Below are positions 4,581-30,710 of a stretch of 64,000 bases of DNA, one piece after another. The DNA is from Parabacteroides faecis. GTDB lineage: Bacteria; Bacteroidota; Bacteroidia; Bacteroidales; Tannerellaceae. A program made the position numbers and the translations under genes. Under the pieces are notes generated by a model. The model did not search any database. It saw only the letters and a list, made by a program, of their open reading frames with translations, and had not been told where the DNA came from. The stretch is taken from contig NZ_BMPB01000014.1 in assembly GCF_014647375.1 (NCBI RefSeq), forward strand, positions 1 to 64,000, read 5' to 3'. How positions within the stretch are numbered: the stretch's first letter is position 1; each line of letters begins with the position of its first letter.

Positions 4581-4614
4581 AACCGGTATTACAAAATCAA
4601 TACGATTCAAATAA

Positions 4615-4715: not shown

Positions 4716-4735
4716 AGTTCTTGGAGAACTATGTC
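4716..4735 (+). repeat. left inverted repeat of a candidate invertible segment
   Basis: The sequence AGTTCTTGGAGAACTATGTC matches the reverse complement of 5128-5147 at 19 of 20 positions. Its first 15 bases are themselves a dyad (AGTTC, five bases, GAACT), the usual architecture of a site-specific recombinase core. See the paired repeat at 5128-5147. Confidence 0.7.
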
Positions 4736-5127: not shown

Positions 5128-5147
5128 GACATAGTTCTCCAAGGACT
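5128..5147 (-). repeat. right inverted repeat of a candidate invertible segment
   Basis: This is the inverted partner of 4716-4735 with one mismatch (AGTCCTTGG in place of AGTTCTTGG on the minus strand). It lies 64 bases upstream of the SusC start codon, a plausible leader distance for a promoter reading out of the segment. Confidence 0.7.
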
Positions 5148-5211
5148 CAGATATACCTTATTTAACCTTAGTGAAAATTGTAGTTATATTATATAATTTA
5201 ATGTGTGTGAA

Positions 5212-8424: not shown

Positions 8425-8443
8425 AACGAGGAGAAAATAAAAT

Positions 8444-9955: not shown

Positions 9956-9976
9956 TTTAATTTAAAAGAGAGAATT

Positions 9977-10681: not shown

Positions 10682-10694
10682 ACGGATAGAAATT

Positions 10695-11195: not shown

Positions 11196-11254
11196 TATAT
11201 AAGAACTATTTATAAAACATAACACGTTAACCAAAAATCTTGCTAGACACACTC

Positions 11255-11286
11255 GACCGGAGTTAGTAGTGATACCAGCTCCGGTC
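11255..11286 (+). terminator. terminator of the SusC-SusD-lipoprotein operon
   Basis: GACCGGAG and CTCCGGTC form a perfect 8-bp GC-rich stem, extendable by two pairs, followed by TTTATTATA. It lies 60 bases after the last operon gene and before the convergent permease gene. Confidence 0.8.
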
Positions 11287-11355
11287 TTTATTATACATAA
11301 TATCAAATTAGTCTAATGTAATTATTTATACTTCGATACCAATTCAAAGGTGATT

Positions 11356-13713: not shown

Positions 13714-13854
13714 AATACAATATCTTTTGTTTTCATACAACAAAAGTTATGCCACCGACATAACAATCTGAATAACTGAATATTACAGATATCACTCTTC
13801 TATTAAAACTGTGTGGTTCCGCACGAACAACGTTCTTATTCGCACAAAATAGGA

Positions 13855-14703
13855 TCATGAGGAATAGGTCATAAACCAATGCGTAACTTTCTCGCTATAT
13901 GTCTTCGAGATCGGGATATCCGGGACCATTTCCACACCCAATTCAAGATAAACGCCGTCTTTTTCACGACGGATCACTTTTACCTGGTCGAAATTGACCA
14001 TGTAAGAACGATGACAACGCAAGACATTCGTTTCTGCCAGACTCTCTTCGATCGCCTTCAACGAATTGCGAAGCATGAACTTCGTCAACACACCTTTATT
14101 CAGATACCAGATACAGACATAATTATCTGCAGATTCTATATATAAAAGATTCGTCCGCTTCACTGATAAACGCAACTCATGTTTCTCATCATAAAAAGAG
14201 AAGACAGACAATTTGTTCGCAACTTCTGCCCTGTCCTCCTCCAACAACCTCAATTGCCGCTCTTTCTCCTGATAAGAAAAATAAAGATGCAAAGCCGAAT
14301 AAGGTAATAATAGAACCAGACTTGTATTGATCGCCGATTCTTTGAATACACTTAAATATTCACGTTCCGGATTTAACACCAATGTATAGATCGTATAAAA
14401 CAGAGACATAAAAAATATCTCCAGAATAATCCATAACGAATATCCTCCGACCGATATATCATGCTTCCTACCCCAATAATACATAACGATCCGGCTGATC
14501 ACCACTACCAATACGCCAGTAAGGATTATCAGGCTGGAGAACACAAAAAACTTAAATTCCGAAACCGGATACCAATTGGATGAGCTGAACGGCTTATAAA
14601 TATTGATAAACACCAAAGCGAAAAGTGCTGTCAGCAGAACCAGGCGAACGATGTTCGACTTCTCATAAATATAAGCGGGTATTTTATGACCGAGCATTCC
14701 CAT
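13855..14703 (-). CDS. membrane-anchored LytTR transcriptional regulator
   Basis: A 282-residue protein with four predicted transmembrane helices (about 20-38, 48-70, 85-105 and 120-140), a short coiled segment (about 143-165) and a C-terminal LytTR DNA-binding domain (about 180-275, with NLLYIESADNYVCIWY and LRCHRSYMVNFDQV). Instead of a receiver domain the input is the membrane part, so it probably senses a membrane or envelope signal directly. It lies 141 bases upstream of the permease in the same direction and may control it. The 5' part of the gene (14632-14703) lies inside a 395-bp direct repeat, and a shrunken relative of this gene is found at 27692-27874. Confidence 0.88.
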   Translation of the reverse strand: MGMLGHKIPAYIYEKSNIVRLVLLTALFALVFINIYKPFSSSNWYPVSEFKFFVFSSLIILTGVLVVVISRIVMYYWGRKHDISVGGYSLWIILEIFFMSLFYTIYTLVLNPEREYLSVFKESAINTSLVLLLPYSALHLYFSYQEKERQLRLLEEDRAEVANKLSVFSFYDEKHELRLSVKRTNLLYIESADNYVCIWYLNKGVLTKFMLRNSLKAIEESLAETNVLRCHRSYMVNFDQVKVIRREKDGVYLELGVEMVPDIPISKTYSEKVTHWFMTYSS

Positions 14704-14726
14704 ATCTTTTGCCTCTTATTTGGTAA

Positions 14727-14734
14727 CAAATGTA
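14727..14734 (-). promoter_or_regulatory. promoter -7 element of the LytTR gene
   Basis: The minus strand reads TACATTTG, matching TAnnTTTG, 24 bases before the LytTR start codon. An identical copy exists in the right direct repeat (27898-27905), where it now serves only a remnant. Confidence 0.5.
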
Positions 14735-14875
14735 ATAGTAAATCCCGAAACATTCACCCCGCATATAAAAATTTCACCCCACTATTCGGGTTTATGCCCC
14801 TCCCGCAGTTCACCGGAACCATTTATTTGCAAGGATTGTTTTAATAGTGTTTGTTTGCATCAAAAATCGATTGTT

Positions 14876-15026
14876 ATGGATATCTCACTTCGCACACAAC
14901 AGCTGAACAGCCTTTTCTCGTATGATAAAAAGGCACACCTGGAAGAGAGCCGCCTGGAAATAACTCCCTTTCGTTTTACGCAGACAATAGGTGCCAGCGA
15001 AATTAACGAATTCCAGAAAGAGCTCG
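14876..15026 (+). pseudogene. truncated DUF6051 gene (N-terminal 50 codons)
   Basis: The ATG and the next 50 codons are nearly identical to the start of the intact DUF6051 gene at 28047 (one visible amino-acid change, Arg to His). The gene then breaks at 15026 and joins a fragment of a GH29 gene in another frame; the read-through product would stop at 15106. It is a gene stump created by the rearrangement. Its upstream region is intact, so it may still be transcribed. Confidence 0.88.
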
Positions 15027-15368
15027 GAACCGACAAAAGATTCCCCCCGTTATACCGAACCTTTTGCATTTGCTCAAAAAGGAACAATCAAGGCTACCTC
15101 GTATGACCGAACTTTCGACAAGAGCAGTCCGGTTCCCGTAAAAGAGTTGGATATTCCGGCATCCAACTACACTGTCATTTATCCAAAAGACGAAAAAACA
15201 ATAGCGATGTTCGACGGCAACGGATATACGACATTCTATTTACCGAAAGGAAAACAGGAAATCCGTTTCCCGGCTGTAAAAAGAAACAAGATACGGTTTG
15301 TAGCAACTCGCATCATCGATAATCAACCTCTGGCAGGGATCGGCGAGTTTTCTGTAATTACAGAATAA
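15027..15368 (+). pseudogene. remnant of a second GH29 fucosidase (C-terminal tail)
   Basis: The translated sequence (SEPTKDSPRYTEPFAFAQKG to the ending AGIGEFSVITE) corresponds to the last part of the fucosidase at 2526-4580. By my count the compared part is about 83% identical in DNA, with most changes silent, so it diverged while still under selection. Compared with the intact gene it lacks 168 bp, the segment between two copies of AGCAGGAA (4297-4304 and 4465-4472), an in-frame deletion of 56 codons. It has no start, signal or catalytic domain and is out of frame with the DUF6051 stump before it. Confidence 0.88.
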
Positions 15369-15376
15369 ATTGTACA

Positions 15377-15415
15377 GGCACATAATCCTTTGATCCAATT
15401 CAAAGATTATGTGCC
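15377..15415. terminator. hairpin terminator between the GH29 remnant and the GH88 gene
   Basis: An 11-bp perfect stem (GGCACATAATC / GATTATGTGCC) continues, past one bulged base, with CTTTG/CAAAG. It lies 28 bases beyond the stop of the leftward GH88 gene. T-tracts on either side are weak, so I call it a probable bidirectional terminator. Confidence 0.65.
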
Positions 15416-15442
15416 ATACAATACAAAGAGAGTCTTGTGCTG

Positions 15443-16654
15443 TTACGAATTATACTTATTTTCTATATCCCTTTTCCGTTTTAATGCCTCCAAGAAATAA
15501 TAATCAGCATAGTTGAGTGGAACATCTATTTCACCATTATGAGGTATACTTCCCACACAATGCATTAATAGAAAATTCCCATTCTTTCCCAATTCCGCAC
15601 GATATGCCGGAGAAGCCAAGCTCTCCATAATACGGTCAGCATATGCCTTATATATCTGCGGTTCAGAGACTCCCATCGTCGTTATCTCATATAAGGCAGA
15701 AGCGATACAAGCCGCAGCCGAAGCATCCCGATAGTCATTTGGTATGTTAGGAGCATCCATATCCCAGTAAAAAATAAAATCATCAGGAGTATTTTTATGA
15801 GTAAACATAAAATGGATTGATTTTAACGCCTGGTCTATATATTTTCGGTCTCCCGTTTCACGATAACAAAGCGTTAACCCATAGATACCCCAGGCTTGCC
15901 CACGGCTCCATGCCGATTCATGTGCATATCCCTGTGCAGTATGACGGAAACGAACGGAACCATTCTCCATACTGTAATCTACCACATGATAACAGCTGCC
16001 ATCCGGACGATACTGTTCCTTCATGGTACGATCCACATGGGAAACAGCAATCTTATAGAATGTCGAATCGCCGGACAATTTTGTTGCAGCAAATAATAAC
16101 TCCAGGTTCATCATATTATCAATAATGACAGGACATTCCCAACCGCGTTCGGAAATCCATCCCCTGTCAACATTCCAGGACTGAATGATACCCGCCACAG
16201 GCCGGAAACGGGTCGATAAAGACCGGGCTGCCTCAACAATCACATTTTTATACTCCTCATTTCCTGTTAAACGTAATCCATTGCCGAAACTGCAATAGAT
16301 CATAAAACCGACGTCATGATTCCATGTAATGTTTTTGGCATCCTTAACCTCCTCTGTATACTTTCGGGCTATAGGTAACAACGTCTTATCTCCCGTCAAT
16401 TCATACAAATACCATATAGAACCTGGAAAAAAACCGCTTCGCCAGTCGGTCAGATTACAGTAATAAACGGAGCCGTCTGAATTCAATGTAGTCGGATTCA
16501 TAAACTTACCGCTTTCTTCAATAAGTTTTATCTCATTACCTATCTGTTTATGGGCAAACTCAACATTTTCTTCAATAAACTCCTTCTTCACTTCACTACA
16601 TGAAATCAACGCAGCACAGAAAGCTATACCCATTAAATACTTCATTTTTACCAT
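15443..16654 (-). CDS. GH88 unsaturated glucuronyl hydrolase
   Basis: A 403-residue exported lipoprotein (lipobox LISC, Cys19) of family GH88. These enzymes hydrate the 4,5-unsaturated uronic acid left at the non-reducing end by polysaccharide lyases and so release it. The expected acidic pair is visible: Asp114 in NHDVGF and Asp179 in VIIDNMMNLELL, with nearly the spacing of characterised GH88 enzymes. HESAWSRGQAWGIYGL (about 236-251) is a further family signature. It is the last gene of the leftward operon SusC-SusD-lyase-GH88 and complements the upstream lyase. The start could equally be the ATG at 16645, three codons later. Confidence 0.92.
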   Translation of the reverse strand: MVKMKYLMGIAFCAALISCSEVKKEFIEENVEFAHKQIGNEIKLIEESGKFMNPTTLNSDGSVYYCNLTDWRSGFFPGSIWYLYELTGDKTLLPIARKYTEEVKDAKNITWNHDVGFMIYCSFGNGLRLTGNEEYKNVIVEAARSLSTRFRPVAGIIQSWNVDRGWISERGWECPVIIDNMMNLELLFAATKLSGDSTFYKIAVSHVDRTMKEQYRPDGSCYHVVDYSMENGSVRFRHTAQGYAHESAWSRGQAWGIYGLTLCYRETGDRKYIDQALKSIHFMFTHKNTPDDFIFYWDMDAPNIPNDYRDASAAACIASALYEITTMGVSEPQIYKAYADRIMESLASPAYRAELGKNGNFLLMHCVGSIPHNGEIDVPLNYADYYFLEALKRKRDIENKYNS

Positions 16655-16687
16655 ATTTATATATTTATTTTTGATGTAATTACATGT

Positions 16688-18517
16688 CTAATCTCCTGAT
16701 AATAAAACTTTGATTACCTGTATGGTGCTATTTGAGACCGAAGCTGATAAAACCGTATAACCTTCTATAAGTTTTTCATTTTCCGTCTCTCTTTTTGCCC
16801 TTTTTGTTGTAAACGAAGCATTAACCGGCGATTCAATCTTCAAAGAGAATGATTTACCATCTTTTCGTAAAATTGCCGTATTTCCATTACACTCAACATC
16901 GGCAGAAGTAATCACAGACCATTGTACCGATTGCTCCGTATTTTTTAACCCTACGCTGTCCGTAATCATTATCCGGGTATCATCCAATAAACAGAAAGTT
17001 CGGTAAACAAAGCGGCTCTGTTCCTGATAAGCCGTACTCATATCCATTGTTACAAAAGGGCGAACAGCTTTATCGTCACAATCTTTGATCTCTCCCATCC
17101 CAGCTGAATTTTGTAATTGATTATCGATCGACAGAGTATTATGACTAAAATTGGAATTCCTGAAATAAGTCCACCTCCGGCCGTCCGGCTTATAATCCCA
17201 GAATCCGGGCAAACTGTAATTATCCGTCCCCAGATCATCAGTCCACCTTATCCCGTTTGTTTCTACAATGAAAGTTCCGATATCCAACTGTTGATGTGCC
17301 ATATCCGGATCGCCGGTCTTAGCGATCAGATAAATACTGTTGGATACATTCCTGTCTCCATTAAATACAACAATATCATTTATTCCTCTGTAGACGTTTA
17401 ACTTCGGCAAGGTTTCTGAAGCAGAAAAAGCTGTATCATACCAGGGAATAGACAAAAAATAAAATCTGAAATAATTCCCGCTTTGTACTGTTTCCGAAAG
17501 GACCTTCCTATAAAACGATGCAGCTTCCGGCTGATTGAATGCTTTACTGAAATAAAAATAAATAGGTTCTGCTGTCGGCGCCGTACTTCCGGAATTAGCA
17601 AAATTAAATATCTTGCCTGAAGGACTTGTGCTATGCATATAATACAAAACACTTTTATCCACACCCTGCATTTCAGAAAGCCCGAAATCCTGTCCGAGAT
17701 TATCATTCAAAGCTTTTAATAAGAGCGAAAGATACATATTGGTATATCCCCAATAGGCAGGTCCTTCATAACAAACTCCATCCGGTGCCAGATGTTTTAG
17801 ACAATTAGGTACATACTTTACAGCTTCACCGATAATATGTTGAGTAAGTTCAGGATAATATTCCTCAATGGCTAAAGCTCCTAATACCATCCCTGTATTA
17901 CAAACCACATTCCAGTTCGTCTCACGTTTGGCCCAAGAATCACTGTTACCGTTTTTATACTCTTCGACAACAAGATCCAATGCTTTCGTTTTAATAGAAC
18001 TGACAATCAATCGTTTTGTCACAGGAGACAGCACATCATATAACCAGTCATATCCAATAGCAACCGCAGTCGTCATTTCTGCAACATCTAGATAATGGGC
18101 TGGATCCCAATCCTGATAATTACAAACATGCACCAATTCCTTTTCTGCCTTCTCAGCAAACCGTTTATCTCCACTGAGCCGGTAAGCCAGGGACAGGTTA
18201 ACCATTCGGTATACCTGTTCACGACTGACCGACAATATATCTTTCGTCTGTTTAACCTTCATGCGCGGATCCTCCTGTAATGGAACAACCAATAATCGTT
18301 CCGCTTCCTTCATCAAACCGGCACGTAAGCTATCCAATAAAGGTTCTCTACCCACTAAAGCCTGAACTCTTTGTTCTTCCTGTTTACTAAACAGTAACCT
18401 GGGATGCTGCTGCAACATCCTTTCCCGGAAAAGGACCGATGTTTCTTTACAATTGACTACCAAAGAAAACAAGAAGAATAAGCTCACTAAACCAATAAAT
18501 CTCATAAATTGATACAT
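16688..18517 (-). CDS. heparinase II/III-like polysaccharide lyase
   Basis: A 609-residue exported protein. The signal region (FIGLVSLFFLFSLVVNC) may end in a lipobox, or may be cut later. The N-terminal helical toroid domain (about 35-350) begins HPRLLFSKQEEQ and carries ETNWNVVCNTG and YEGPAYWGYTNMYL, the usual heparinase II/III active-site regions. The C-terminal beta-sheet domain (about 375-600) contains AHQQLDIGTFIVETNGIRW and FSHNTLSID. These lyases cleave uronic-acid polysaccharides by beta-elimination, generating the unsaturated ends removed by the adjacent GH88. The exact family (PL12, PL21, PL33 or another) and the substrate are unresolved. It is cotranscribed with SusD upstream and GH88 downstream. 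Confidence 0.85.
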   Translation of the reverse strand: MYQFMRFIGLVSLFFLFSLVVNCKETSVLFRERMLQQHPRLLFSKQEEQRVQALVGREPLLDSLRAGLMKEAERLLVVPLQEDPRMKVKQTKDILSVSREQVYRMVNLSLAYRLSGDKRFAEKAEKELVHVCNYQDWDPAHYLDVAEMTTAVAIGYDWLYDVLSPVTKRLIVSSIKTKALDLVVEEYKNGNSDSWAKRETNWNVVCNTGMVLGALAIEEYYPELTQHIIGEAVKYVPNCLKHLAPDGVCYEGPAYWGYTNMYLSLLLKALNDNLGQDFGLSEMQGVDKSVLYYMHSTSPSGKIFNFANSGSTAPTAEPIYFYFSKAFNQPEAASFYRKVLSETVQSGNYFRFYFLSIPWYDTAFSASETLPKLNVYRGINDIVVFNGDRNVSNSIYLIAKTGDPDMAHQQLDIGTFIVETNGIRWTDDLGTDNYSLPGFWDYKPDGRRWTYFRNSNFSHNTLSIDNQLQNSAGMGEIKDCDDKAVRPFVTMDMSTAYQEQSRFVYRTFCLLDDTRIMITDSVGLKNTEQSVQWSVITSADVECNGNTAILRKDGKSFSLKIESPVNASFTTKRAKRETENEKLIEGYTVLSASVSNSTIQVIKVLLSGD

Positions 18518-18539
18518 TAAAATTACATTTTGAATGGAT

Positions 18540-20273
18540 TTACCATCCCGGATTCTGCTTCAACGCTTCGTTGCGCTCTATCTCCACACCAGGTATAGGC
18601 CAAAGCATATCCCGTTCGGAAAATTTATGAGTATAGATAAACTCACCATAAATATTGATTGCATCTACCTCACTCATAGCCTTGCTTGCTATTTCCCATC
18701 CCCAACGGCGCAAATCACTGAAACGTAATCCTTCTCCCGCAAACTCAACAGCACGTTCTTTTCGTATACGTTCAGCCATCTGCTCTTTGGATGTAACAAG
18801 CATCCAGGCAGGACCAGAGTTTAATCCGGGCATATCCACTCTGGCTCTTACCTTATTGAATTCGGTAACCGCTTTATCCAATTGGTTATTTTCATTATAG
18901 GCTTCCGCCAACATCAGCAATACATCCGCATAACGAATCAGAGGAAACTCAAAAGGAGTGTGTAAACGGTCACTAATAGCTCCCCCAAGATCATATTCAG
19001 CTACAAATTTGCGATACAAATAAGATATCCAACCTTTATTATTTCGTATGGTTCCCTGATTTTCATTTCCTTGCACATTATGGTCCATCGCAAACAACAT
19101 ATCCCGTGGAGTCGTCTTTCCGATACAACCTTTATAAATAGAATAAGGGACAATCAAAGTAGCCATCATACGAGGATCCCTGCTTTTATATACATTCAAT
19201 ATTTGCGCTGTATCTACATCTCTCAATCCAATAACAGCCCCTGACGCATCCATATCTACACTAAACAATTCTTTACGCTGATCCGGAGTAGCTTCATTGT
19301 ATCCGGGAAAAACATCATTCCAACTGAAAGGACGGCCATCTTTGAGTTCATACATATCTGCCAATTGGGTGGAAGGAACAGTATTGTTCCAACAACTACC
19401 AAACGCACTGCGTGTCCCCATCAATGCTTGCATAGCCATACCATACTCTGTTCCGACACCACTTTTATTCTGTACAGAAAAGATCATCTCAGAACTCTTA
19501 TCTCCATTATAAAGTTTAAATATATGAGCATAATCAGTGTCTAGGTCATATCCATAATTGTTAGACTTGTTATTGACAATCTCTTCAAAATCCGCAATAG
19601 CATTCTGCCATTCTTTATTATAAAGATAAACTTTTCCACGCAAAGCATAGGCTGCCCCTTTCGTCGCACGACCATAATCAGAATCATTATGCCTGACCGG
19701 AAGATAAGCGACAGCCTCATTCAAGTCACTGATGATATGTACACGGATCTCTTCCGCGGAGCTTCTGGGTTTCTTCAAGCCAACGTATTCCACATTCAGA
19801 TTCGTCGTTTCATCATAGTAAGGAACACCGCCGTATAAGTCCAACAGAGTAAAATAAAACATTCCCCGCAGGAATCTGGCTTCAGCCATATACTCCTTTT
19901 TTTGTTCCTCGGTAAGAACATCCATAGTCGGTATGACCCGAAGGTAGCTGTTAGCTCTCTGAATCCCATCATACATCGTTTGCCATTTGGATTGAATTTC
20001 TGCTGAACGATCAGAATAAGTACCCAGATACATCATATAATAGTCATATCCATAAGCAATATCAGCCAGGTGATCGAATAAAAACTGGTAACCGTAGGCG
20101 TGATTATCCCGCAACATGCCATAAATTCCCATCAATCCTTGTTTCGCATGTTCTTCCGTTTGGTAGAAAAGGTTCTCACTTACTTTATCACCGGGATAAG
20201 TATTAAGATCATAACATCCGTTGAATGTGGCAGATGTCAATAAAATAGAAATATATATCAGTATTTTTTTCAT
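18540..20273 (-). CDS. SusD/RagB family glycan-binding lipoprotein
   Basis: A 577-residue classical SusD-type lipoprotein (lipobox TFNGC, Cys20, then YDLNTYPGDKVSENLF). The TPR-like core shows the usual AEARFLRGMFYFTLLDLYGG (about 131-150) and the C-terminal RAVEFAGEGLRFSDLRRWG and LWPIPGVEIERNEALKQNPGW motifs. It caps the SusC transporter encoded immediately upstream (12-base gap) and binds the polysaccharide at the surface. The operon places it in a system for a uronic-acid polysaccharide. Confidence 0.95.
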   Translation of the reverse strand: MKKILIYISILLTSATFNGCYDLNTYPGDKVSENLFYQTEEHAKQGLMGIYGMLRDNHAYGYQFLFDHLADIAYGYDYYMMYLGTYSDRSAEIQSKWQTMYDGIQRANSYLRVIPTMDVLTEEQKKEYMAEARFLRGMFYFTLLDLYGGVPYYDETTNLNVEYVGLKKPRSSAEEIRVHIISDLNEAVAYLPVRHNDSDYGRATKGAAYALRGKVYLYNKEWQNAIADFEEIVNNKSNNYGYDLDTDYAHIFKLYNGDKSSEMIFSVQNKSGVGTEYGMAMQALMGTRSAFGSCWNNTVPSTQLADMYELKDGRPFSWNDVFPGYNEATPDQRKELFSVDMDASGAVIGLRDVDTAQILNVYKSRDPRMMATLIVPYSIYKGCIGKTTPRDMLFAMDHNVQGNENQGTIRNNKGWISYLYRKFVAEYDLGGAISDRLHTPFEFPLIRYADVLLMLAEAYNENNQLDKAVTEFNKVRARVDMPGLNSGPAWMLVTSKEQMAERIRKERAVEFAGEGLRFSDLRRWGWEIASKAMSEVDAINIYGEFIYTHKFSERDMLWPIPGVEIERNEALKQNPGW

Positions 20274-20285
20274 GGTTCAAAATAT

Positions 20286-23200
20286 TTAAAAGGTAAGATT
20301 CAGTCCAAATGTTGTTAATCTCATTGTTGGATACTTAGTACCTGATATTTCCGGGTCAAGCCCTTTATATCCCGTAAATGTCAATGCGTTATCTATACTG
20401 ACATAGAAACGAAGGTTATCCAGCAACAATTTCTGGGAAAGCTGCTTCGGGATAGTATATCCTAATTGTATATTCTTTACCCTTACATAGGATCTGTCCT
20501 GGACCCAAAAGTCGCTGGCTACACTGTTACGTCCATCACTGTAATCCAACAAACGCGGATAAGTAGCATCTGTTCGCCCCGAATACCAGCGTCCGTCAGC
20601 AATTGTCTTATTAATCTGATTACCCCGGCGAACTAAAGGCCAAAAGCTAGCTCCATCCTGACCGCTCCAGTACTCTTTCAGTCCAGTTGCCCCCTGAAGA
20701 ATACATGAGAAGTCCAATCCTTTCCAACTTGCTCCGAAATTGAAGCCAAAAGTGACAGTTGGATTGGTTCCATTACCAACCATGATACGGTCTTTATCCG
20801 TAATACACCCGTCACCATCAATATCTTTATAAAGGAAATCACCCATTTCCGGTTTTTTATACTGGGAAAAAGCATCCGGATTTTTCTCTTCCATGGTCCG
20901 GACCAATGCCAGATCCTCTTCTGTCTGAATAATACGATCTACGGAAAGGACATACTGAATATTGATTGGTTGTCCTTCCAATATCATATTAGTCCCACTA
21001 ATAGATGGTTCATCACCTTTAAATTTAGTTACTTCGTTTTTTACGTATGATACATTCCCTCCCACGAAGTAATCTACTTGCCCGATACGGTCAGTCCACG
21101 TCAGATTTAATTCAAGACCTCTGTTACGAACCTGAGCCGCATTTGATTTAGGGACAGTTGCATTCCCATGCACTAACGGAGCAGGTAAATCAATCAGGAT
21201 TCCCTTAGTATTTTTTACAAAGAAATCAACATTTCCACTCAATTTTGAAACACCAAAATCAATTCCCACATTTGTTAAATAGGTCGTCTCCCATGTCAAA
21301 CCGGCATTAGACAAGGCCCTTTGCGCCATCCCAATCTGTACGGAATTATTCAATGTATAATTTGAGGCAGAATAAAACATCTGATAATCATAATCACCTA
21401 CCGAATTGTTTCCCAATGAGCCATAAGAAGCACGTATTTTAAACTGGTTGACTAGATCTATATCTTTCATAAATCCTTCTTCACTCATACGCCAACCGGC
21501 AGAAAATGAAGGGAAGAAACCTCTTCTGTTTTTTCCTGCAGCAAACCGGGAAGAATTATCCATACGAAGATTGGCTTCAAACAAATATTTCTCATCCCAG
21601 TTCAGGTTTACTCTTCCAAAGAAAGAATGCATAGCCCAGTTAGAATAGTTTCCTGTCGCTGTAGCATTGGCCGTTGCGGCATTCAATTCCGTCATTTCCG
21701 GAGCGATTAAATCTTCCTTACTGGCCTGGAACCAATTATAACGATACGCTTCCTGGCTACCTCCGACTGTCGCCTGAATATTTAATCGGTCTATATCTGT
21801 TTCATAACGAATAATTCCATCCATATGATTCCGTACCCATTTTTCGTCGTGATTGGTCACTTTTGTCTTTCCTGTTCCGGCAGTCTGGACAGTATTACTA
21901 TACAAATTCCATATATCATGAAACACGGGCTGTTCATAACGGTATCTATTTTGAAAATCATATGTATAAGATCCTTCTATGGTCAATCCTTTAAAAGGTC
22001 TGATCTGTGCATAAAAACGCGATACCATTTTATTTGTTGTCCGATTTCCCTTTGTACTGTTTAACTTACGCAATATATTATTGGTACCAGACTGGGCATC
22101 ATCTTCCGGATTATTGACACCACCATACCGCCCGTCTGGTGCCTGGAAACACATCCCAGGAGTCGTTGCCTGCAAATGTGTATAAAATAAACTGCCTGTA
22201 CCTTCTGTCTGGATCAATCCCAGATCTTCTTTTCCACGATAACCATAGGCATTAACTCCAATCGTAAACCATTCTTTGACTTCCGCATCCAGGTTCACAC
22301 GGGCACTATAACGGTCATAACCGGAATTTTCCATAATTCCCGGATTCTTCAGATAATTTCCGGATATGAAATAATGAATTTTATCAGAACCTCCGGTAAT
22401 GGATATGGTATGATTTTGCAACCATCCTGTTTTGAATGCAGCATCTTGCCAATCCGAATTCGGATATTTTACAAGATCACTATTCCCGGCAGCACGCCAC
22501 TCGTCTATTTTTTCCTGACTAAACGGTGCCGGCAGATTACTGTTTCTTTCTCCTTCATTAAACAGTTCCATATAATCTGCATAGTTGGTGACAAGGTCCA
22601 TACGATGAGCAACCTGTTGCATAGTTACATAACCGTTATAAGAAATTCTGGAACCGCCTGTTTTACCTTTACGGGTTGTGATCAGGATAACACCATTAGC
22701 AGCACGTGAACCATAAATTGCAGACGAAGCAGCATCTTTCAGCACAGAAATACTTTCCACATCCTGCGGATTAATATCGTTCATACTCCCCGGAACCCCA
22801 TCAATAACAACTAATGGATCAGAATTATTCAAAGTACCTTGTCCGCGTACCCGTATAGTTGCTCCATCATTGCCAGGCCGCCCTCCACTACCTTGTGTCA
22901 CAGATACACCGGCAGCCATACCCGAAAGTCCTGCTGACAATGAAGTAATAGGACGGCTATCTACCATCTTACTCATATCAACAGATGATACAGCTCCTGT
23001 CAAATTCACTTTTTTCTGTGTTCCATATCCCACAACCACAACTTCATCCAAGGCTTGTGAATCTTCTTTTAATTGGATCATAAAAGAGTTTTTTCCATTT
23101 ACCGGTATACTTTGTTCAATATAACCGATATAAGAAACCGTCAATACAGCACTAGGAGACACCTGTAAAGAAAAACGTCCTTCCATATCAGTGACCGTTC

Positions 23201-23429
23201 CGTTAGTAGTTCCTTTTTCTACTACATTCGCTCCGATTACCGGTCCCTGTGCATCTTTTACTGTTCCCGTAACAGTCACTTTCGCTTGTTGGGATAATAG
23301 CAACTTTTCCGTTATACCTTCCCCGGCACTAACCGGATTGGCTTGGACTATTCCCACGGACAAGAATAGTGTGGCCATTCCTGCAAACATTGTTTTCCTA
23401 AAAAAAGGAATGTTCAAATCATTCGTCAT
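20286..23429 (-). CDS. SusC/RagA family TonB-linked outer-membrane transporter
   Basis: A 1047-residue SusC transporter, first gene of the leftward lyase operon. After an N-terminal extension and signal (hydrophobic MFAGMATLFLSVGIVQA at 14-30) come the carboxypeptidase-D-like domain (about 47-125), the plug with LDEVVVVGYGTQKKVNLTGA (about 126-145) and AIYGSRAANGVILITTRKG, and a beta-barrel ending FGLNLTF. No STN domain is present, in agreement with control by the adjacent hybrid two-component gene rather than by sigma/FecR. The start could be the internal Met at residue 14. Confidence 0.94.
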   Translation of the reverse strand: MTNDLNIPFFRKTMFAGMATLFLSVGIVQANPVSAGEGITEKLLLSQQAKVTVTGTVKDAQGPVIGANVVEKGTTNGTVTDMEGRFSLQVSPSAVLTVSYIGYIEQSIPVNGKNSFMIQLKEDSQALDEVVVVGYGTQKKVNLTGAVSSVDMSKMVDSRPITSLSAGLSGMAAGVSVTQGSGGRPGNDGATIRVRGQGTLNNSDPLVVIDGVPGSMNDINPQDVESISVLKDAASSAIYGSRAANGVILITTRKGKTGGSRISYNGYVTMQQVAHRMDLVTNYADYMELFNEGERNSNLPAPFSQEKIDEWRAAGNSDLVKYPNSDWQDAAFKTGWLQNHTISITGGSDKIHYFISGNYLKNPGIMENSGYDRYSARVNLDAEVKEWFTIGVNAYGYRGKEDLGLIQTEGTGSLFYTHLQATTPGMCFQAPDGRYGGVNNPEDDAQSGTNNILRKLNSTKGNRTTNKMVSRFYAQIRPFKGLTIEGSYTYDFQNRYRYEQPVFHDIWNLYSNTVQTAGTGKTKVTNHDEKWVRNHMDGIIRYETDIDRLNIQATVGGSQEAYRYNWFQASKEDLIAPEMTELNAATANATATGNYSNWAMHSFFGRVNLNWDEKYLFEANLRMDNSSRFAAGKNRRGFFPSFSAGWRMSEEGFMKDIDLVNQFKIRASYGSLGNNSVGDYDYQMFYSASNYTLNNSVQIGMAQRALSNAGLTWETTYLTNVGIDFGVSKLSGNVDFFVKNTKGILIDLPAPLVHGNATVPKSNAAQVRNRGLELNLTWTDRIGQVDYFVGGNVSYVKNEVTKFKGDEPSISGTNMILEGQPINIQYVLSVDRIIQTEEDLALVRTMEEKNPDAFSQYKKPEMGDFLYKDIDGDGCITDKDRIMVGNGTNPTVTFGFNFGASWKGLDFSCILQGATGLKEYWSGQDGASFWPLVRRGNQINKTIADGRWYSGRTDATYPRLLDYSDGRNSVASDFWVQDRSYVRVKNIQLGYTIPKQLSQKLLLDNLRFYVSIDNALTFTGYKGLDPEISGTKYPTMRLTTFGLNLTF

Positions 23430-23472
23430 AAATAGGTAGATTTAGATTAATAAATTCAGATAAACTCTGAGG

Positions 23473-23480
23473 CAAAAATA
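23473..23480 (-). promoter_or_regulatory. promoter -7 element of the lyase/GH88 operon
   Basis: The minus strand reads TATTTTTG, matching TAnnTTTG, 43 bases before the SusC start. No good -33 box is at the right distance, which fits a promoter needing activation by the neighbouring regulator. Confidence 0.4.
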
Positions 23481-23580
23481 GCCGGGTACACAAAAAAAGA
23501 CCTATACATAGCGTCCGTTTTTTATATACACACAGTCCAAATAGAAGATTTAACTATTTGATTATAAATGATTAGCTATT

Positions 23581-26500
23581 TCACTTCTCTTTTTTCCGAA
23601 ATTGAGCCGGCGAAACCCCGAATTTTGTCTTAAAACAACGACTGAAATATATGGTAGAAACAAATCCCAGTTGATCCGATATTTCACTCACCAACATATC
23701 CGGCCGTTCCTGTAGCAGAACCGATGCACGTTTGATACGCTGATTTTGTATAAATTCACTCGGCGTCATACCTGTAAGATTTTTCATTTTTGCAAAAAAA
23801 GAACTACGTCCCATATTCAATTCACGGGCAAGTATATTCACATCGAAATCCTGGTCACCCATATGTTCATCTATAATTTCTACAATACGATTCAGTAATT
23901 TCTGGTCCAAGGAAGTAGAGGCCAGCAACTGTACATCAAAATCACCTTGCTGAGTCAATCTGGATTTCAGCAATAAACGATTACGAATTAAATTATTACA
24001 ACGCATCAGTAAAACTCTTGCATGGAAAGGCTTACTCACATAATCATCAGCTCCCTGCTGGAATCCTTCAATATTATACTCAACAGAATCAAGGGCTGTC
24101 AACAAAACGACAGGAATATGGCAAAGATCAATATTATTCTTAATTTTCATACACATTTCCATGCCACTCATCAGAGGCATCATAACATCACTGACCACCA
24201 AATCCGGTTTTTCCTCAATAGTCTTTCGTAATCCTTCTTCTCCATTTCCAGCTAATATCACCTGATAAAAAGGACTAAACAAGGTATTTAATATTTGTAT
24301 CAACTCCTCATTATCTTCCACTATCAGTATCTTATAAGAACCGACCTTCAGATCCGGAAAAGTAGTGTTCATCTCTTTGTATTCTTCCGGTAAAACGGAA
24401 TCCGGCAACGATCCCCGTTTGATCATAGGCTCTTCCGGAACTTCCAGAAGAATGGTATTTCCATCATTCTCAAAATGGGCTTTACCTTTTAATAAGGTAA
24501 TCGTAAAAATTGTACCATATCCTAACTGGCTTTGTACCGTAATCTCTCCATGATGAAGGTTGACAATGTTCTTACTCAATGCCAGCCCTAATCCAGTTCC
24601 CGGATTGGCCTTAGACAGTTGTTTCCCGTTTTCCGCCTGATAAAAACGGTCAAAAATACGTGACACATCACCAGACGATAGTCCGATACCCGTATCGATC
24701 ACTTTTATATGAACATTATTCTCATCCGGAGAAATATACAAATCTACCACACCTCCCGGTTTAGTATATTTGAAAGCATTGGACAAAAGATTATAAAAGA
24801 CCTTTTGCAGTTGATTGGAATCAAACCACAGCAGAACATCATTTTCTTCATGAAGAAGATTAAAGGAAATCGTTCGTTGAGCAGCCAATTCACAATACGA
24901 AAGATAAATATCCTTCAAAAAAGGAACCAGATTTTGTTCACAGACACGCAACGAAACATAATTCTGCTCGAGTTTCCTGAATTCCAACAATTCGGAAATC
25001 ATATTCCTCATGCGAGTAGCATTTTTACTAATCTTAACAATCCTATTATATAAAGTTGGAGGAAGTGATGAACTCTGGAGCAACATATCCACCTGACTGA
25101 AAATAAGCGTCAGCGGAGTCCGGAACTCATGGCTGATGTTAGTAAAAAAACGTAGTTTGGCCTGATTAAGTTCTTCATTCCGCTCTTTCTCTTCTCTTTC
25201 TTTCTCAAGAGAAAGGGCCAATCTTCTTCTGGCATTTATCGTGCGAATTGTCAGATAAACAATTATAATGGTAGTCAGGGTATACAGAATCCATGCCCAG
25301 ACCGTATTATACCAAGGTTGTGCAATCAGGATGTTCAGAGAAATTTCACGTCGGTTCATCAAGTGCTGCGGTAAAATCTTTTCACGAACCAACAGTTTAT
25401 ATTCCCCGGGATCCAGATTCGTATAATAAATACTGGAGGAAAAAGAGGATACCCAATCTTCATCAAAACCGACCAGTTTATATTGATATTCATTATTCTT
25501 CTGAATATCAATATAATTAGTAGTTGCAAAATTTATGATCAGATTGTTTTGTTTATTATTCAGGTGAATCGACTTATTAAAAGGAAAAGACTCTTTCAAG
25601 ATCCCGCCCGAAACAACCCCCGGATATATTCTTTTATTATGGATATACAGCTCCGAGAAATATAAAGAATAATTCTTTTCCTTTTGATCCAGATCTTCCC
25701 GGAAGAAAGAGGCAAGCCCGTCATTTCCTCCGACAAACAGTTCATTATTTCTGCAAACCAAAATACCACATCCATCCGCAATTGAAGTGATAGGCAAATT
25801 TGTTCCCAATGTCACAAACCGGGTATTTTCATTGGAAGGATTCAAAAAAGTAATACCCTTATCGCTGGTAACCAGTAATTCTCCCGAATTTGTTTCCGCA
25901 ACATTATAACAGTAATTACTTAACAAATGCCCGCTTCCCTGTGAGTAATGGATAAAGGAATCGGATTGTTTATCATACCGGTATAAACCTCCTCCCAAAA
26001 CAACAAAATAAATATCGCCACTATTGGTCGTAATAATCCGTTTAGGTTCAAATTGAATACCGTATTGAGGCAGAAAATATTTTTTCTGATTTTCCGGATC
26101 AGCCAGTCTAATCCTGATAAGGGAAGTTCCGATCATAATCCATATATTCTCTTCCTTATCAATCGTAAAATTCTGTGCATTTCTACATAACCATTTAAAC
26201 TCACCCGTACCAAGATCCATAACAAAAGTCCCGTTCATTGCACTCACATATAACTTATCATTATGAATCATCGTGTGAAAAATAATACCATCCGGTTTCA
26301 CATCTTCTTTCTCATAATCATCCAAATAATTATGAAAAATACCGGTTTTTATATCAAACCGAGTCAGTCCTCCATAGTGCGTACCAATATATAACTGATC
26401 CCGTTTTTCGTCATACGCAATACATTTCAGATTATTCTGTAAGACAGAATTAGAAGGTCCCGCAGTAAAATATTTGAATGTACGCGTTTTACGGTCCATA

Positions 26501-27582
26501 AAATTCAACCCGCCTCCTTCGGTACATATCCAGATATTACCATTCTTATCCTCAGCCAAATGGCCGACAAAAGAATAATTCAAACACTCTTTCCGAAAAG
26601 GATTATCCGTATAATGAGCAAAAATTTCCTTCTCCGGATTAAAATAGTTCACACCTCCATAATAGGTTCCTACCCATATTGTTGCCTGCATATCTATATA
26701 AACAGAAAATACGGAAGAATGAGACAGACTACCCGGTAGATGGTCCTGTCGGTACACAGTAAATTTATCTGTATACGGATTATATTTATGTAATCCTAAA
26801 AAGGTTCCGAACCAGATATTCCCAAATCTATCTTCTGCAAAACTCCGTATCTGATTGCTTTCTATATGGTAAGGTTCCGCATTAGAATCCGAATACCAGA
26901 CGACCTTCTCATCCGGCATTATCCTATACAGTCCTCCGGTACGGCAACCAGCCCATATTTCACCTGAAGTACTTTCAAATAAACGGTAAAATTCCGGTCC
27001 GTCAACCAGACAACGTGCTTTTTCTCCTTTTTCAATCACATATAATCCTTCATACGTTCCAACCCAAATTTTATTTCCAGAGACCAGCAAACTGGAAATA
27101 TCCGGTATATCTTCCTCTGTATAAAGCAATAAACTATCCCCTTTTTCATCATAACGGCAAATCATGCCATCATACCCCGTCCATATATCACCATTTGAGG
27201 ATATGACCGTTTTTGCCTTATATTTCCCAATCACATGGAACTTTTCTTCCCGGATATCATACCTCACCAAAGAATCACATGTTCTGAAAAAAATATCTCC
27301 CTGCCGGTTACCGACCAGATGGTCACATTCATGCCCTAACAAAACATTTATAGAACTCTCCTGGTCCGGATTCTCCCATCCCTTGTATACCCGCATTCGT
27401 TCTCCGTCATACACACTAAGCCCTTCACGCGTACCGAACCACATCCGTCCCAGCTGGTCCTGATAAATAGACATAACAGAGACCTGCGATAATCCGTCAC
27501 TCATACCAAGATGCTTAAAATAAACCGGATAAATAACTTGGTGAATGAACAAAAAACACAACAATATCAGTAGTTTTTTCAT
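23581..27582 (-). CDS. hybrid two-component system sensor/regulator (HTCS)
   Basis: A 1333-residue one-protein signalling system. The signal peptide (MKKLLILLCFLFIHQVIYP) leads to a periplasmic sensor of two-component beta-propeller repeats (about 25-680, many W-x-G-T units) and a Y_Y_Y domain (about 690-755). One transmembrane helix lies near 765-785. The histidine kinase follows (H-box FFTNISHEFRTPLTL near 815; ATP site DTGIGL near 964; GTGLGLALS), then a receiver (LIVEDNEEL; Asp in VSDVMMP near 1132) and an AraC-type HTH (about 1235-1333). It should bind a breakdown product of the target polysaccharide and switch on the adjacent SusC operon. The ATG at 27582 is chosen as the first codon of a good signal peptide; 27633 is the in-frame alternative. 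Confidence 0.95.
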   Translation of the reverse strand: MKKLLILLCFLFIHQVIYPVYFKHLGMSDGLSQVSVMSIYQDQLGRMWFGTREGLSVYDGERMRVYKGWENPDQESSINVLLGHECDHLVGNRQGDIFFRTCDSLVRYDIREEKFHVIGKYKAKTVISSNGDIWTGYDGMICRYDEKGDSLLLYTEEDIPDISSLLVSGNKIWVGTYEGLYVIEKGEKARCLVDGPEFYRLFESTSGEIWAGCRTGGLYRIMPDEKVVWYSDSNAEPYHIESNQIRSFAEDRFGNIWFGTFLGLHKYNPYTDKFTVYRQDHLPGSLSHSSVFSVYIDMQATIWVGTYYGGVNYFNPEKEIFAHYTDNPFRKECLNYSFVGHLAEDKNGNIWICTEGGGLNFMDRKTRTFKYFTAGPSNSVLQNNLKCIAYDEKRDQLYIGTHYGGLTRFDIKTGIFHNYLDDYEKEDVKPDGIIFHTMIHNDKLYVSAMNGTFVMDLGTGEFKWLCRNAQNFTIDKEENIWIMIGTSLIRIRLADPENQKKYFLPQYGIQFEPKRIITTNSGDIYFVVLGGGLYRYDKQSDSFIHYSQGSGHLLSNYCYNVAETNSGELLVTSDKGITFLNPSNENTRFVTLGTNLPITSIADGCGILVCRNNELFVGGNDGLASFFREDLDQKEKNYSLYFSELYIHNKRIYPGVVSGGILKESFPFNKSIHLNNKQNNLIINFATTNYIDIQKNNEYQYKLVGFDEDWVSSFSSSIYYTNLDPGEYKLLVREKILPQHLMNRREISLNILIAQPWYNTVWAWILYTLTTIIIVYLTIRTINARRRLALSLEKEREEKERNEELNQAKLRFFTNISHEFRTPLTLIFSQVDMLLQSSSLPPTLYNRIVKISKNATRMRNMISELLEFRKLEQNYVSLRVCEQNLVPFLKDIYLSYCELAAQRTISFNLLHEENDVLLWFDSNQLQKVFYNLLSNAFKYTKPGGVVDLYISPDENNVHIKVIDTGIGLSSGDVSRIFDRFYQAENGKQLSKANPGTGLGLALSKNIVNLHHGEITVQSQLGYGTIFTITLLKGKAHFENDGNTILLEVPEEPMIKRGSLPDSVLPEEYKEMNTTFPDLKVGSYKILIVEDNEELIQILNTLFSPFYQVILAGNGEEGLRKTIEEKPDLVVSDVMMPLMSGMEMCMKIKNNIDLCHIPVVLLTALDSVEYNIEGFQQGADDYVSKPFHARVLLMRCNNLIRNRLLLKSRLTQQGDFDVQLLASTSLDQKLLNRIVEIIDEHMGDQDFDVNILARELNMGRSSFFAKMKNLTGMTPSEFIQNQRIKRASVLLQERPDMLVSEISDQLGFVSTIYFSRCFKTKFGVSPAQFRKKEK

Positions 27583-27652
27583 CTTATTTACGAAACTAAA
27601 TAAAAGAGTCTTCTTGTATCCCCGCTTATTCACAATTACATTATGAATTATA

Positions 27653-27660
27653 CAAAGATA
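27653..27660 (-). promoter_or_regulatory. promoter -7 element of the HTCS gene
   Basis: The minus strand reads TATCTTTG, matching TAnnTTTG, about 70 bases before the HTCS start at 27582. A possible TTG lies 18 bases further upstream (27679-27681). The 464-base gap between the HTCS and DUF6051 genes otherwise holds only the LytTR remnant and the right direct repeat. Confidence 0.45.
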
Positions 27661-27691
27661 GAGATATTTTATTCACTGCAATATCAATTGT

Positions 27692-27874
27692 TCAGTCTTT
27701 CGATAGTTTGTTTGCCGCCTCTGCCCGATCCTCTGCCAGCAATCTCAACAGCCGTTCTTTCTTCTGATAGGAAAAATAGAAACGTAAAACCGAATAAGGT
27801 AACAGCAGAACCAGGCGAACGATGTTCGACTTCCCATAAATATAAGCGGGTATTTTATGACCGAGCATTCCCAT
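27692..27874 (-). pseudogene. shrunken remnant of a LytTR regulator gene
   Basis: A 60-codon frame whose first 24 residues (MGMLGHKIPAYIY...) match the LytTR regulator at 14703 and whose next 35 match residues about 133-167 of it, after which it stops. Relative to the intact gene it lacks 324 bp (108 codons, in frame), exactly the interval between two copies of AGAACCAG (14312-14319 and 14636-14643). It has lost helices 1-3 and the DNA-binding domain. The part near the start is about 99% identical to the intact gene, while the part beyond the junction is only about 82% identical, so the two parts have different histories. Confidence 0.87.
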
Positions 27875-28197
27875 ATCTTTTGCCTCTTATTTGGTAACAA
27901 ATGTAATAGTAAATCCCGAAACATTCACCCCGCATATAAAAATTTCACCCCACTATTCGGGTTTATGCCCCTGCCGCAGTTCGCCGGAACCATTTATTTG
28001 CAAGGATTGTTTTAATAGTGTTTGTTTGCATCAAAAATCGATTGTTATGGATATCTCACTTCGCACACAACAGCTGAACAGCCTTTTCTCGTATGATAAA
28101 AAGGCACGCCTGGAAGAGAGCCGCCTGGAAATAACTCCCTTTCGTTTTACGCAGACAATAGGTGCCAGCGAAATTAACGAATTCCAGAAAGAGCTCG
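27803..28197 (+). repeat. 395-bp direct repeat, right copy
   Basis: Partner of 14632-15026, with four substitutions and no gaps by my reading. It carries the LytTR start region, the divergent spacer and the first 50 codons of the intact DUF6051 gene. Together the two copies enclose 12,776 bp containing the lyase/GH88 locus. Confidence 0.92.
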
Positions 28198-29192
28198 CCA
28201 CGACAGAATTCTGTTCCGTCACCGACGACCATATCCAGGAAAATAAAATATTCAATTATACCGTATTCGCTCCTTCCGGAAAAGAGAAGCGCGACAAAGC
28301 CATTATCCTCCTACACGGACTGAACGAACGAACCTGGGAAAAATACCTGACCTGGGCCGAATATCTGACCGAGTCGACCGGAAAGCCGGTCATACTTTTC
28401 CCGATCGCTTTCCACATGAACCGGACACCGGGCAGCTGGTGCAATCCGCGAACCGTGTTACCCTGGGTCGGTAAACGGAAACAGGAAATAGACAACCTGG
28501 TCAATTCCACTTTCGCCAATATTACGTTGAGTAGCAGACTGTCGATAAATCCGCTGCGTTTCTATGCTTCAGGGCGCGAATCGGTGTATAACCTCTGGCA
28601 ACTGGTCTATGAGATCAAGAGCGGAAGACATCCTCTATTCAAAGAAGACACCTCCATCAATCTGTTTGCCTATTCCATCGGCGCATTGCTGTCGCAGGTA
28701 TTATTACTGAGTAATCCGGAGAAAATGTTCAACGATACCCGCCTGTTCATGTTCTGCGGAGGTTCCATTTTCAGCGAGATGGATGGTAACGCACGCGATA
28801 TTATGGACAAGGATGCATTCGACAGCCTGCAACGCTTTTATCGTCACGACTTTCTGGAAAACCGTTCTTTACCGACTTCGTTCAGGAATGATTTTCTCGA
28901 ACAGGCATTCAAGGCTATGATACGTCCGGATGTTCTGCAGGAATACCGCGAATCCTTTTTCCAGAAAGCGTGTAACCGGATCAAAGCGATCTCATTGAAG
29001 AAAGATGTCGTCATGCCTACAAACGGAGTGATCAAGGCATTGGGTAAAGCATCCGACAAAATACTGGAAGAACTGGATTTTCCTTTCTCTTATTCGCATC
29101 AGATACCGTTCCCTTTCCGGGCAAAGATCGACCAGACACTCGTAAACCGGGAGTTCAACAATATATTCAGTAAGGCGGCAGCATTCTTATAA
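28047..29192 (+). CDS. DUF6051 family protein, alpha/beta-hydrolase-like
   Basis: A 381-residue protein without signal peptide, which I recognise as DUF6051. It looks like a serine hydrolase: AIILLHGLNERTW (about 91-103) resembles the oxyanion strand-loop, and FAYSIGALLSQVL (about 210-222) resembles a nucleophile elbow with Ser213. A C-terminal His is plausible but not pinned down. The substrate is unknown. The ATG at 28047 is chosen because the homologous stump at 14876 starts identically and upstream residues have no protein character. It is divergent from the LytTR remnant; in the presumed ancestral arrangement it was divergent from the intact LytTR gene. It ends at a strong terminator. 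Confidence 0.85.
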   Translation: MDISLRTQQLNSLFSYDKKARLEESRLEITPFRFTQTIGASEINEFQKELATTEFCSVTDDHIQENKIFNYTVFAPSGKEKRDKAIILLHGLNERTWEKYLTWAEYLTESTGKPVILFPIAFHMNRTPGSWCNPRTVLPWVGKRKQEIDNLVNSTFANITLSSRLSINPLRFYASGRESVYNLWQLVYEIKSGRHPLFKEDTSINLFAYSIGALLSQVLLLSNPEKMFNDTRLFMFCGGSIFSEMDGNARDIMDKDAFDSLQRFYRHDFLENRSLPTSFRNDFLEQAFKAMIRPDVLQEYRESFFQKACNRIKAISLKKDVVMPTNGVIKALGKASDKILEELDFPFSYSHQIPFPFRAKIDQTLVNREFNNIFSKAAAFL

Positions 29193-29267: not shown

Positions 29268-30710
29268 TTACTCCAACGTAATCACCTTATATTTCGGAAC
29301 CAACGCCTTCATAGCCACCCATCCGATCAGATAAGCAACAGAACATACGCAGAAGATAATAAAATATCCGGCCGGTTTTCCTTCAAATCCCATAAACGTC
29401 ATGTGAGTTTCATCAGCATAGACAAACAGGTTACCTGCCACTTTCTGCAGGATCATCGAACCTACACCGCCTGCCATACCACCGATACCGGTAATACTGG
29501 CAATAGCAGATTTCGGGAACATATCGCCTACCGTAGAGAAAATATTGGCAGACCAGGACTGGTGAGCCGCACCGCCGATACCGATCAAAATTACCGGAAA
29601 CCAGGGAGAAATAGTACCTAACGGCTGCGCCAATAATACGACCAACGGGAAGAAAGCGAAGATCAGCATCGCTTTCATACGGGCAGCATACGGATTCATA
29701 CCTGTACGGTTGATAAATATAGTCGGAAGTTTACCCCCGTAAATAGAGAGCATCGTAATCGCATATAACGTAAAGATCAATGCCATTCCCAACGGATCGG
29801 AAGTCTTGATCCCGAACTGTGTATTCAGATAAGAAGGAGTCCAGAACAGGAAGAACCACCATACACCATCCGTCATGAATTTACCGACAATGAACGACCA
29901 GGTCTGCTTATAACTGAAACATTGCCAGAAACCGATCTTTTTCTCCTCTTCTTCTGTTTTTGCAATTCCGCCGTCTTCATCCTTATCCTGTTCGATATAA
30001 GCCAATTCGGCTGCATTCACATGTTTACTCTTTTCGGGAGTGGTGTACATGAACACCCACATTCCCATCCAGATAAAACCAAGCGCACCGATCACGATAA
30101 AAGCCATTTCCCATCCCAGCCATTTAGCCAACGGCGGAATACTGAGCGGAGCGATCAAGGCACCGATAGAAGCACCGGCGTTGAATATAGAGGTCGCGTA
30201 AGCACGGTCTTTCTTCGGGAAATATTCGGCTGTTACCTTAATTGCTGCCGGGAAGTTTCCGGCTTCACCCAAGGCCAGCACACAGCGGGCAACCAGGAAG
30301 CAATACATACTGACAGTCGCCAGTACAACAACTACATCACCCGTTGCGCCGATCAGCTCGGCCGCACTGTTCATTCCTACATAATGTTCCGTTACAACAC
30401 CACATAACGCGTGCATGCAGGCACCCACCGACCAAACACCGATCGACCAGAGGTATCCTTTTTTTGTACCCATCCAGTCTATAAAGCGACCGGCAAAGAG
30501 CATACAAATAGCGTATACAATAGAAAATACAGATGTGATCGTACCGTAGTGAGATTCGTTCCAATGAAATTCGGGTTTGATAAATTCATCCCAGGTTAGT
30601 GATAAGACCTGACGGTCGAGATAATTTACTGTTGTCGCAAAGAACAACATCGCACAGATCGTCCATCTGTACCGGGTCATTTTCTGACCAACATTGCCTA
30701 ATGTGCTCAT
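29268..30710 (-). CDS. MFS transporter, hexuronate (ExuT-like) type
   Basis: A 480-residue, 12-helix major facilitator of the anion:cation symporter group. The start (RYRWTICAMLFFATTVNYLDRQVLSLTW, about 13-40) and the loop FAGRFIDWMGTKKGY (about 71-85) are typical of hexuronate and galactarate carriers. A charged central loop lies at about 235-262. It should import glucuronate, galacturonate or related acids with protons across the inner membrane. The context supports this: tagaturonate reductase and altronate dehydratase are encoded nearby, and the lyase/GH88 locus releases unsaturated uronates. It is divergent from the second HTCS gene. Confidence 0.87.
   Translation of the reverse strand: MSTLGNVGQKMTRYRWTICAMLFFATTVNYLDRQVLSLTWDEFIKPEFHWNESHYGTITSVFSIVYAICMLFAGRFIDWMGTKKGYLWSIGVWSVGACMHALCGVVTEHYVGMNSAAELIGATGDVVVVLATVSMYCFLVARCVLALGEAGNFPAAIKVTAEYFPKKDRAYATSIFNAGASIGALIAPLSIPPLAKWLGWEMAFIVIGALGFIWMGMWVFMYTTPEKSKHVNAAELAYIEQDKDEDGGIAKTEEEEKKIGFWQCFSYKQTWSFIVGKFMTDGVWWFFLFWTPSYLNTQFGIKTSDPLGMALIFTLYAITMLSIYGGKLPTIFINRTGMNPYAARMKAMLIFAFFPLVVLLAQPLGTISPWFPVILIGIGGAAHQSWSANIFSTVGDMFPKSAIASITGIGGMAGGVGSMILQKVAGNLFVYADETHMTFMGFEGKPAGYFIIFCVCSVAYLIGWVAMKALVPKYKVITLE

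Follow-up and report, generated by a model that had tools for sequence, protein, structure and literature searches.

In the 64,000-nucleotide stretch of Parabacteroides faecis DNA that we analysed (the window), a polysaccharide locus (PUL B) lies between two 395-bp direct repeats, accompanied at its inner ends by the relics of a second GH29 alpha-L-fucosidase gene (GH29') and of a second LytTR regulator gene (LytTR''). The reading that we favour, with somewhat better than even confidence, is that the insert is another version of this same chromosomal interval that diverged long ago (GH29'-PUL B-LytTR'') and would have been stacked beside the resident version by illegitimate or microhomology-assisted recombination. 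Read head to tail, the resulting layout is GH29-PUL A-LytTR-(DUF6051 start), then (GH29' end)-PUL B-(LytTR'' piece)-DUF6051 (Table 1).

Table 1. Features of the GH29-to-MFS interval, with positions in the window.
Feature	Position	Strand	Evidence and remarks
GH29 alpha-L-fucosidase, resident, intact; left landmark of the variable interval	2526..4580	+	Pfam Alpha_L_fucos; adjoins LytTR in G038, G013, G002
PUL A, resident insertion between GH29 and LytTR (SusC, SusD-like, Ig, lipid-binding and FtsX genes)	4581..13854	.	Pfam; missing in G038, G013
LytTR regulator, resident, intact	13855..14703	-	Pfam LytTR
Left repeat copy (LytTR 5' end, intergenic region, DUF6051 5' end)	14632..15026		395 bp
DUF6051 truncated start, ~50 codons, cut at the left joint	14876..15026	+	
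GH29' relic, C-terminal part of a second GH29 gene	15027..15368	+	Homology begins at 15024, 3-bp overlap TCG with the repeat
GH88 unsaturated glucuronyl hydrolase	15443..16654	-	Pfam PF07470; PDB 3wiw, E=5.5e-93
PL35-like polysaccharide lyase	16688..18517	-	PDB 9o3q 'PL35 chondroitinase', E=2.4e-178
SusD	18540..20273	-	Pfam PF07980
SusC	20286..23429	-	Pfam plug, barrel and carboxypeptidase-regulatory-like domains
HTCS hybrid two-component sensor	23581..27633	-	Pfam
LytTR'' relic, codons 132-166 of a second LytTR	27707..27802	-	Joined to repeat codon 24 at microhomology AGAACCAG
Right repeat copy	27803..28197		395 bp, direct
DUF6051, intact, ATG 28047, stop 29192	28047..29192	+	Pfam PF19519; alignment
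MFS transporter, resident; right landmark	29268..30710	-	DNA match in 24/39 genus genomes, own included

The repeat itself is as the earlier note had described it: alignment and a search of the own genome returned two direct copies at a constant offset of 13171 with 4 mismatches over 395 bp (~99% identity; positions 14663, 14802, 14812 and 14937 in left-copy numbering), and no further copy was found in the 6.66-Mb assembly. The edges are sharp, identity dropping to chance level within ~10 bases beyond both copies, and each copy comprises the first 24 LytTR codons, the intergenic region and about the first 50 codons of DUF6051, a gene that alignment with relatives shows to be conserved. The gene structure assigned to the copies also held, in that the left one joins the intact LytTR to a broken DUF6051 start of ~50 codons and the right one joins a LytTR broken after 24 codons to the intact DUF6051. 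At 3 of the 4 mismatch sites, the base of each copy also occurs in some relative (at 14937, that of the right copy in 4 of 5 relatives and that of the left copy in G004), and at site 14802 neither base is common to any compared relative; these bases give no direction and are compatible with copies that stem from two strains. That the repeats instead mark an assembly error or a strain mixture, with the true chromosome maybe empty and the insert elsewhere or circular, is very improbable. The length of the repeat is similar to that spanned by short-read libraries, the assembly consists of 33 contigs and the empty and inserted paths have the same repeat; against this, the copies are distinct at four sites and both lie inside one 247-kb contig, real molecules are required to explain the unique inner joints (15026/15027 and 27802/27803), and genome completeness stands at 99.99 with contamination at 0.74.

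The earlier note had proposed comparing the LytTR-DUF6051 interval in other genomes, and had held that a crossover between the copies would rebuild an intact LytTR-DUF6051 pair. When the flanks were joined in silico as such a crossover would leave them (2167 bp), the product aligned as one block with each of the four clade relatives compared (G038, G013, G009 and G022; 80.7-82.4% identity, at most 3 gaps): the empty LytTR-DUF6051 site is thus the ancestral form, and its collinearity in 4/4 relatives bears out both the rebuilt pair and the inserted nature of the polysaccharide locus. The LytTR orthologues of these four genomes share 90-94% of their amino acids with the resident regulator. A further boundary is visible in G038 and G013, where the homology blocks stop at 4580 and restart at 13855, with a gap of only ~70 bp between GH29 and LytTR. 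Among the stretches read, GH29 adjoins LytTR in G038, G013 and G002.

What the earlier note had seen between the repeats was a polysaccharide locus only: the locus stood, but the inner ends of the insert had been missed; these consist of the GH29 C-terminal relic (15024-15368) and the diverged LytTR relic (27707-27802). Both relics keep the order and orientation of the ancestral GH29(+)-LytTR(-)-DUF6051(+) series seen in G038, G013 and G002. GH29' matches the resident GH29 at 83.5% of nucleotides over two common blocks of 237 and 115 bp and has an internal deletion of 168 bp (56 codons), and LytTR'' matches the resident LytTR at 78.7%. A plain recent tandem duplication would have left copies that are near-identical along their whole shared length, in place of this contrast between a repeat at 99% and relics at 83.5% and 78.7%. 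Over the 114 codons shared by GH29' and the resident gene we counted ~47 synonymous and 11 non-synonymous changes (dN/dS ~0.04), and between the resident gene and its counterparts in G009, G022, G038 and G013 45.5-55.5 synonymous and 7-14.5 non-synonymous changes: since the synonymous count is like that between species and dN/dS is ~0.04, the divergence of GH29' is about as old as the clade species and accumulated mostly in a working gene that was later damaged. For LytTR'', where the sample is small, 14 of the differences over 105 sites fall in synonymous codons and 11 in non-synonymous ones, with no clear constraint. With only 4 mismatches between the repeat copies over 395 positions, the duplication that gave rise to them is far younger than the GH29'/GH29 split, unless gene conversion has kept them alike.

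This last proviso is the core of the main competing explanation, which holds that GH29-LytTR-DUF6051 was long ago duplicated in tandem and in place within the own lineage, that the second GH29 and LytTR decayed after the entry of PUL B, and that gene conversion kept 395 bp alike. GH29' is closest to the resident gene, at 83.5% (its two blocks match the four relatives from the clade at 78.4-82.8%), and LytTR'' is likewise closest to its resident counterpart; IQ-TREE placed GH29' in a polytomy that also includes the resident gene, G022, G001 and the G009/G038/G013 group, the nearest row being the resident, and the topology test does not reject sisterhood of GH29' and the resident GH29 (p-AU 0.27). 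An interpretation of GH29' as clearly non-sister to the resident gene was dropped, as it rested on one weak FastTree branch separating the two (support 0.744) and p-AU for sisterhood is 0.27. With both relics closest to the resident genes and sisterhood not rejected, an old duplication in the own lineage is possible; the two GH29-...-LytTR-...-DUF6051 series do stand head to tail, and a conversion tract would naturally stop where homology stops. We nevertheless consider it unlikely: conversion must have spared LytTR'' (79%) and GH29' (83.5%) and yet have held the repeat at 99%, two GH29 genes must have kept working next to each other over roughly the time since the clade species separated, and each of the four clade relatives contains a single match to the repeat.

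As to the cargo, PUL B comprises five genes in total, namely a SusC/SusD pair, CAZymes and a regulator. Its lyase is similar in sequence to the PL35 entries 9o3q, 8khv and 8khw (E 2.4e-178 to 1.4e-81), and the available text of PMC12269599 identifies 8KHV and 8KHW as PL35 enzymes and describes PL35 and then GH88 acting in sequence on chondroitin in PUL25 of Bacteroides caccae. Other PL35 enzymes are described, in the text available, as active on several glycosaminoglycans, and the substrate of PUL B, judged by sequence similarity, is probably chondroitin or a related glycosaminoglycan. The locus looks intact, as its genes align to relatives over nearly their whole length. A search with the lyase at E 1e-100 found 11 of 124 family genomes, 5 of them in the genus (own included); in the four other genus members with PUL B, the lyase shares 81-82% and the other genes 72.5-86.8% of amino acids with those of the window, at ~75-77% nucleotide identity. 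No relatives of GH29, LytTR or DUF6051 flank PUL B in the stretches read on either side in those four, and a source genome arranged GH29'-PUL B-LytTR'' was not found among the genomes compared. The G+C content of PUL B is 39.6%, as against 46-47% in GH29, DUF6051 and the MFS gene; as the resident LytTR and FtsX genes are also at 40%, composition is no proof of foreign origin.

The joints were analysed with the resident genes as stand-ins for the second version. At the left joint (15026/15027), which leads from GH29' to DUF6051, the microhomology measures 3 bp (TCG); at the right joint (27802/27803), it measures at least 8 bp (AGAACCAG) and connects approximately codon 131 of the second LytTR to codon 24 of the resident, these being non-allelic positions. 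Random joins in the window (n=200,000) show at least 3 bp of microhomology in 5.7% of cases and at least 8 bp in 0.016%. The right joint is hence unlikely to be a blunt accident, and the microhomology of the left joint is uninformative.

The order of events that we propose begins with the GH29-to-MFS interval as a variable site at which polysaccharide loci would come and go, the lineage starting from GH29-PUL A-LytTR-DUF6051. A segment of another version, made up of the 3' part of GH29', the PL35/GH88/SusCD/HTCS genes and the LytTR'' relic, would then have been added beside LytTR-DUF6051 without replacing the resident, the left joint being formed illegitimately from GH29' to DUF6051 and the right joint inside LytTR at the microhomology. 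Through a 395-bp step backwards on the host template, the divergent promoter segment would come to lie on both sides; LytTR would retain its start via the left copy and DUF6051 via the right copy, with neither resident gene lost. Two variants may be envisaged: microhomology template switching at both joints, or, akin to homology-facilitated illegitimate recombination, a homologous anchor in the repeat and DUF6051 combined with one illegitimate joint and followed by an internal deletion of LytTR''. An anchor within the repeat or DUF6051 is possible, and the internal LytTR'' deletion could be a later event. Of the alternatives that had been offered in the earlier note, template switching and a duplication with subsequent replacement of its interior, both come closer than its main reading, given that the ends of the insert are remnants of this very interval, arranged in its order and orientation. 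Integration of the Campbell type can also be considered, in which a circle with the repeat, the GH29' relic, PUL B and the LytTR'' relic, perhaps looped out of another strain, entered through one crossover in the 395 bp. Such a crossover yields exactly these direct repeats, and 395 bp at 99% is adequate homology for it; the odd joints, however, must already exist on the circle, which only moves their origin elsewhere, and this explanation appears improbable. As to carriage on a plasmid, no near match to the insert was found among 72,556 plasmid records, and the 24-mer of the left joint was absent from the viral contigs searched.

Conserved neighbours with differing loci between them, as at PUL exchange sites, were found in the relatives. 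In G009, G004, G005, G024 and G018, GH29 is separated from LytTR or DUF6051 by other genes: these are sensor kinases in the first four, accompanied by SusC/SusD in G009, G004 and G005, and one gene of 560 amino acids in G018. GH29 lies beside the MFS gene in G001 and on another contig in G022, no LytTR was found at E 1e-20 in G005, G018 and G012, and no DUF6051 within the 19.9 kb read in G003. From comparison of these sequences, the interval is a recurrent insertion site, and its stacked, repeat-flanked form was seen only in the window among the stretches compared: self-comparison of ten relative stretches (G009, G004, L016-L018, L020-L022, L087 and L089) gave no repeat resembling the 395-bp one, but mostly pairs of 65-77% identity over 90-440 bp, in addition to a single 47-bp pair (87%) and an inverted pair of 29 bp.

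Several smaller observations were made in the same neighbourhood. In G004 (L019, 8291-8959), LytTR is truncated after approximately codon 187 and adjoins an HTCS gene, an arrangement similar to that of the cut LytTR'' next to PUL B in the window. In G012 (L020, ~9240-9730), DUF6051 is immediately preceded by GH29 relics (codons 586-620 and 1-88); with these relics and no LytTR found, the interval of this genome is eroded too. A short SusD-like remnant between DUF6051 and the MFS gene in G013 (L018, 7701-9179) suggests that a PUL has decayed on the far side of the LytTR-DUF6051 pair. In the window, an HTCS gene (30892-34938) occupies the region between the MFS and LacI genes (30808-34963), which adjoin in G038 and G013, and seems to be a third insertion near this interval. 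Further downstream (46251-47435) there is a DNA polymerase IV gene (NCBIfam match).

The built-in loss route proposed in the earlier note was not supported. If the two copies recombined by a RecA-type process, 13,171 bp would be lost and the ancestral pair restored; this holds for any direct repeat, and no evidence of regulated or dedicated loss was found. In the stacked insertion, the repeat represents the shared region of divergent promoters, and none like it occurs in the ten relative stretches self-compared. The statement that neither an integrase nor a transposase is involved agrees with the Pfam scan, which found none of those families among 20 window proteins. The idea of an element dedicated to excision, with the repeats serving as attachment-like sites, was rejected as extremely unlikely, even if recombination would precisely rebuild the ancestral pair: what would be expected of an integrative element such as an ICE or genomic island was not found, there being no recombinase family among the 20 proteins, no tRNA gene in the window, a homologous repeat of 395 bp in place of a short att core, no repeat-flanked insertion in the ten self-compared stretches and insert ends that are gene relics. 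A search of the literature for PULs with direct repeats and excision found no report. Recombination between GH29 and GH29' would offer a second route and remove PUL A with the resident LytTR, a weaker one because 237 and 115 bp at 83.5% are poor homology. A far-reaching idea, to which we attach only a very slight probability, is that the stacked form is a reversible hybrid: crossover in the repeat would return the PUL A version, crossover between GH29 and GH29' the PUL B version, and the 13,171-bp circle would re-enter other strains via the promoter repeat. If this were true, a PUL would move between cells by host recombination alone, with no mobile element genes.

The processes underlying the proposed stacking are known, and the preserved intermediate is the unusual part. 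Integrase-free entry of PULs into Bacteroidota chromosomes is difficult to trace, as a clean allelic replacement does not scar the sequence; in the window, the joints survive in the relics of neighbour genes and in the duplication of a promoter segment, which makes it a readable intermediate with what would be two versions of an exchange site in one chromosome. It suggests that a divergent gene pair can take up an insertion without harm when both gene starts are duplicated, and it predicts segregants with one locus or the other. Among known systems, microhomology-mediated template switching, as generally understood, has in common with the window the short microhomologies at both joints and the local duplication of host sequence, and differs in that one template would here have to be foreign or extra-copy DNA. 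In the one-sided anchor picture, a RecA-anchored stretch and an illegitimate joint of a few bp together join foreign DNA to the chromosome. Homology-facilitated illegitimate recombination of this kind is described for laboratory transformation, with short integrated segments of 3-10 bp in the available part of PMC6382021. A joint of a few bp is seen in both cases and an anchored stretch may be, whereas ~12.8 kb were added here and host sequence was duplicated. PUL25 of Bacteroides caccae likewise combines a PL35 lyase and GH88 in one locus, but additionally has a GH109, a dehydratase first annotated as GH154 and peptidases according to the available text of PMC12269599, while PUL B has its five genes only. 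A further parallel is offered by chromosomal sites of PUL exchange in Bacteroidota; the accessible part of PMC13188876 describes both the exchange of PULs from species to species and sites in B. thetaiotaomicron with extra loci in some strains. There as here, loci lie between conserved neighbours in some genomes only, whereas the window stacks two versions in tandem together with the relics of their shared neighbours.
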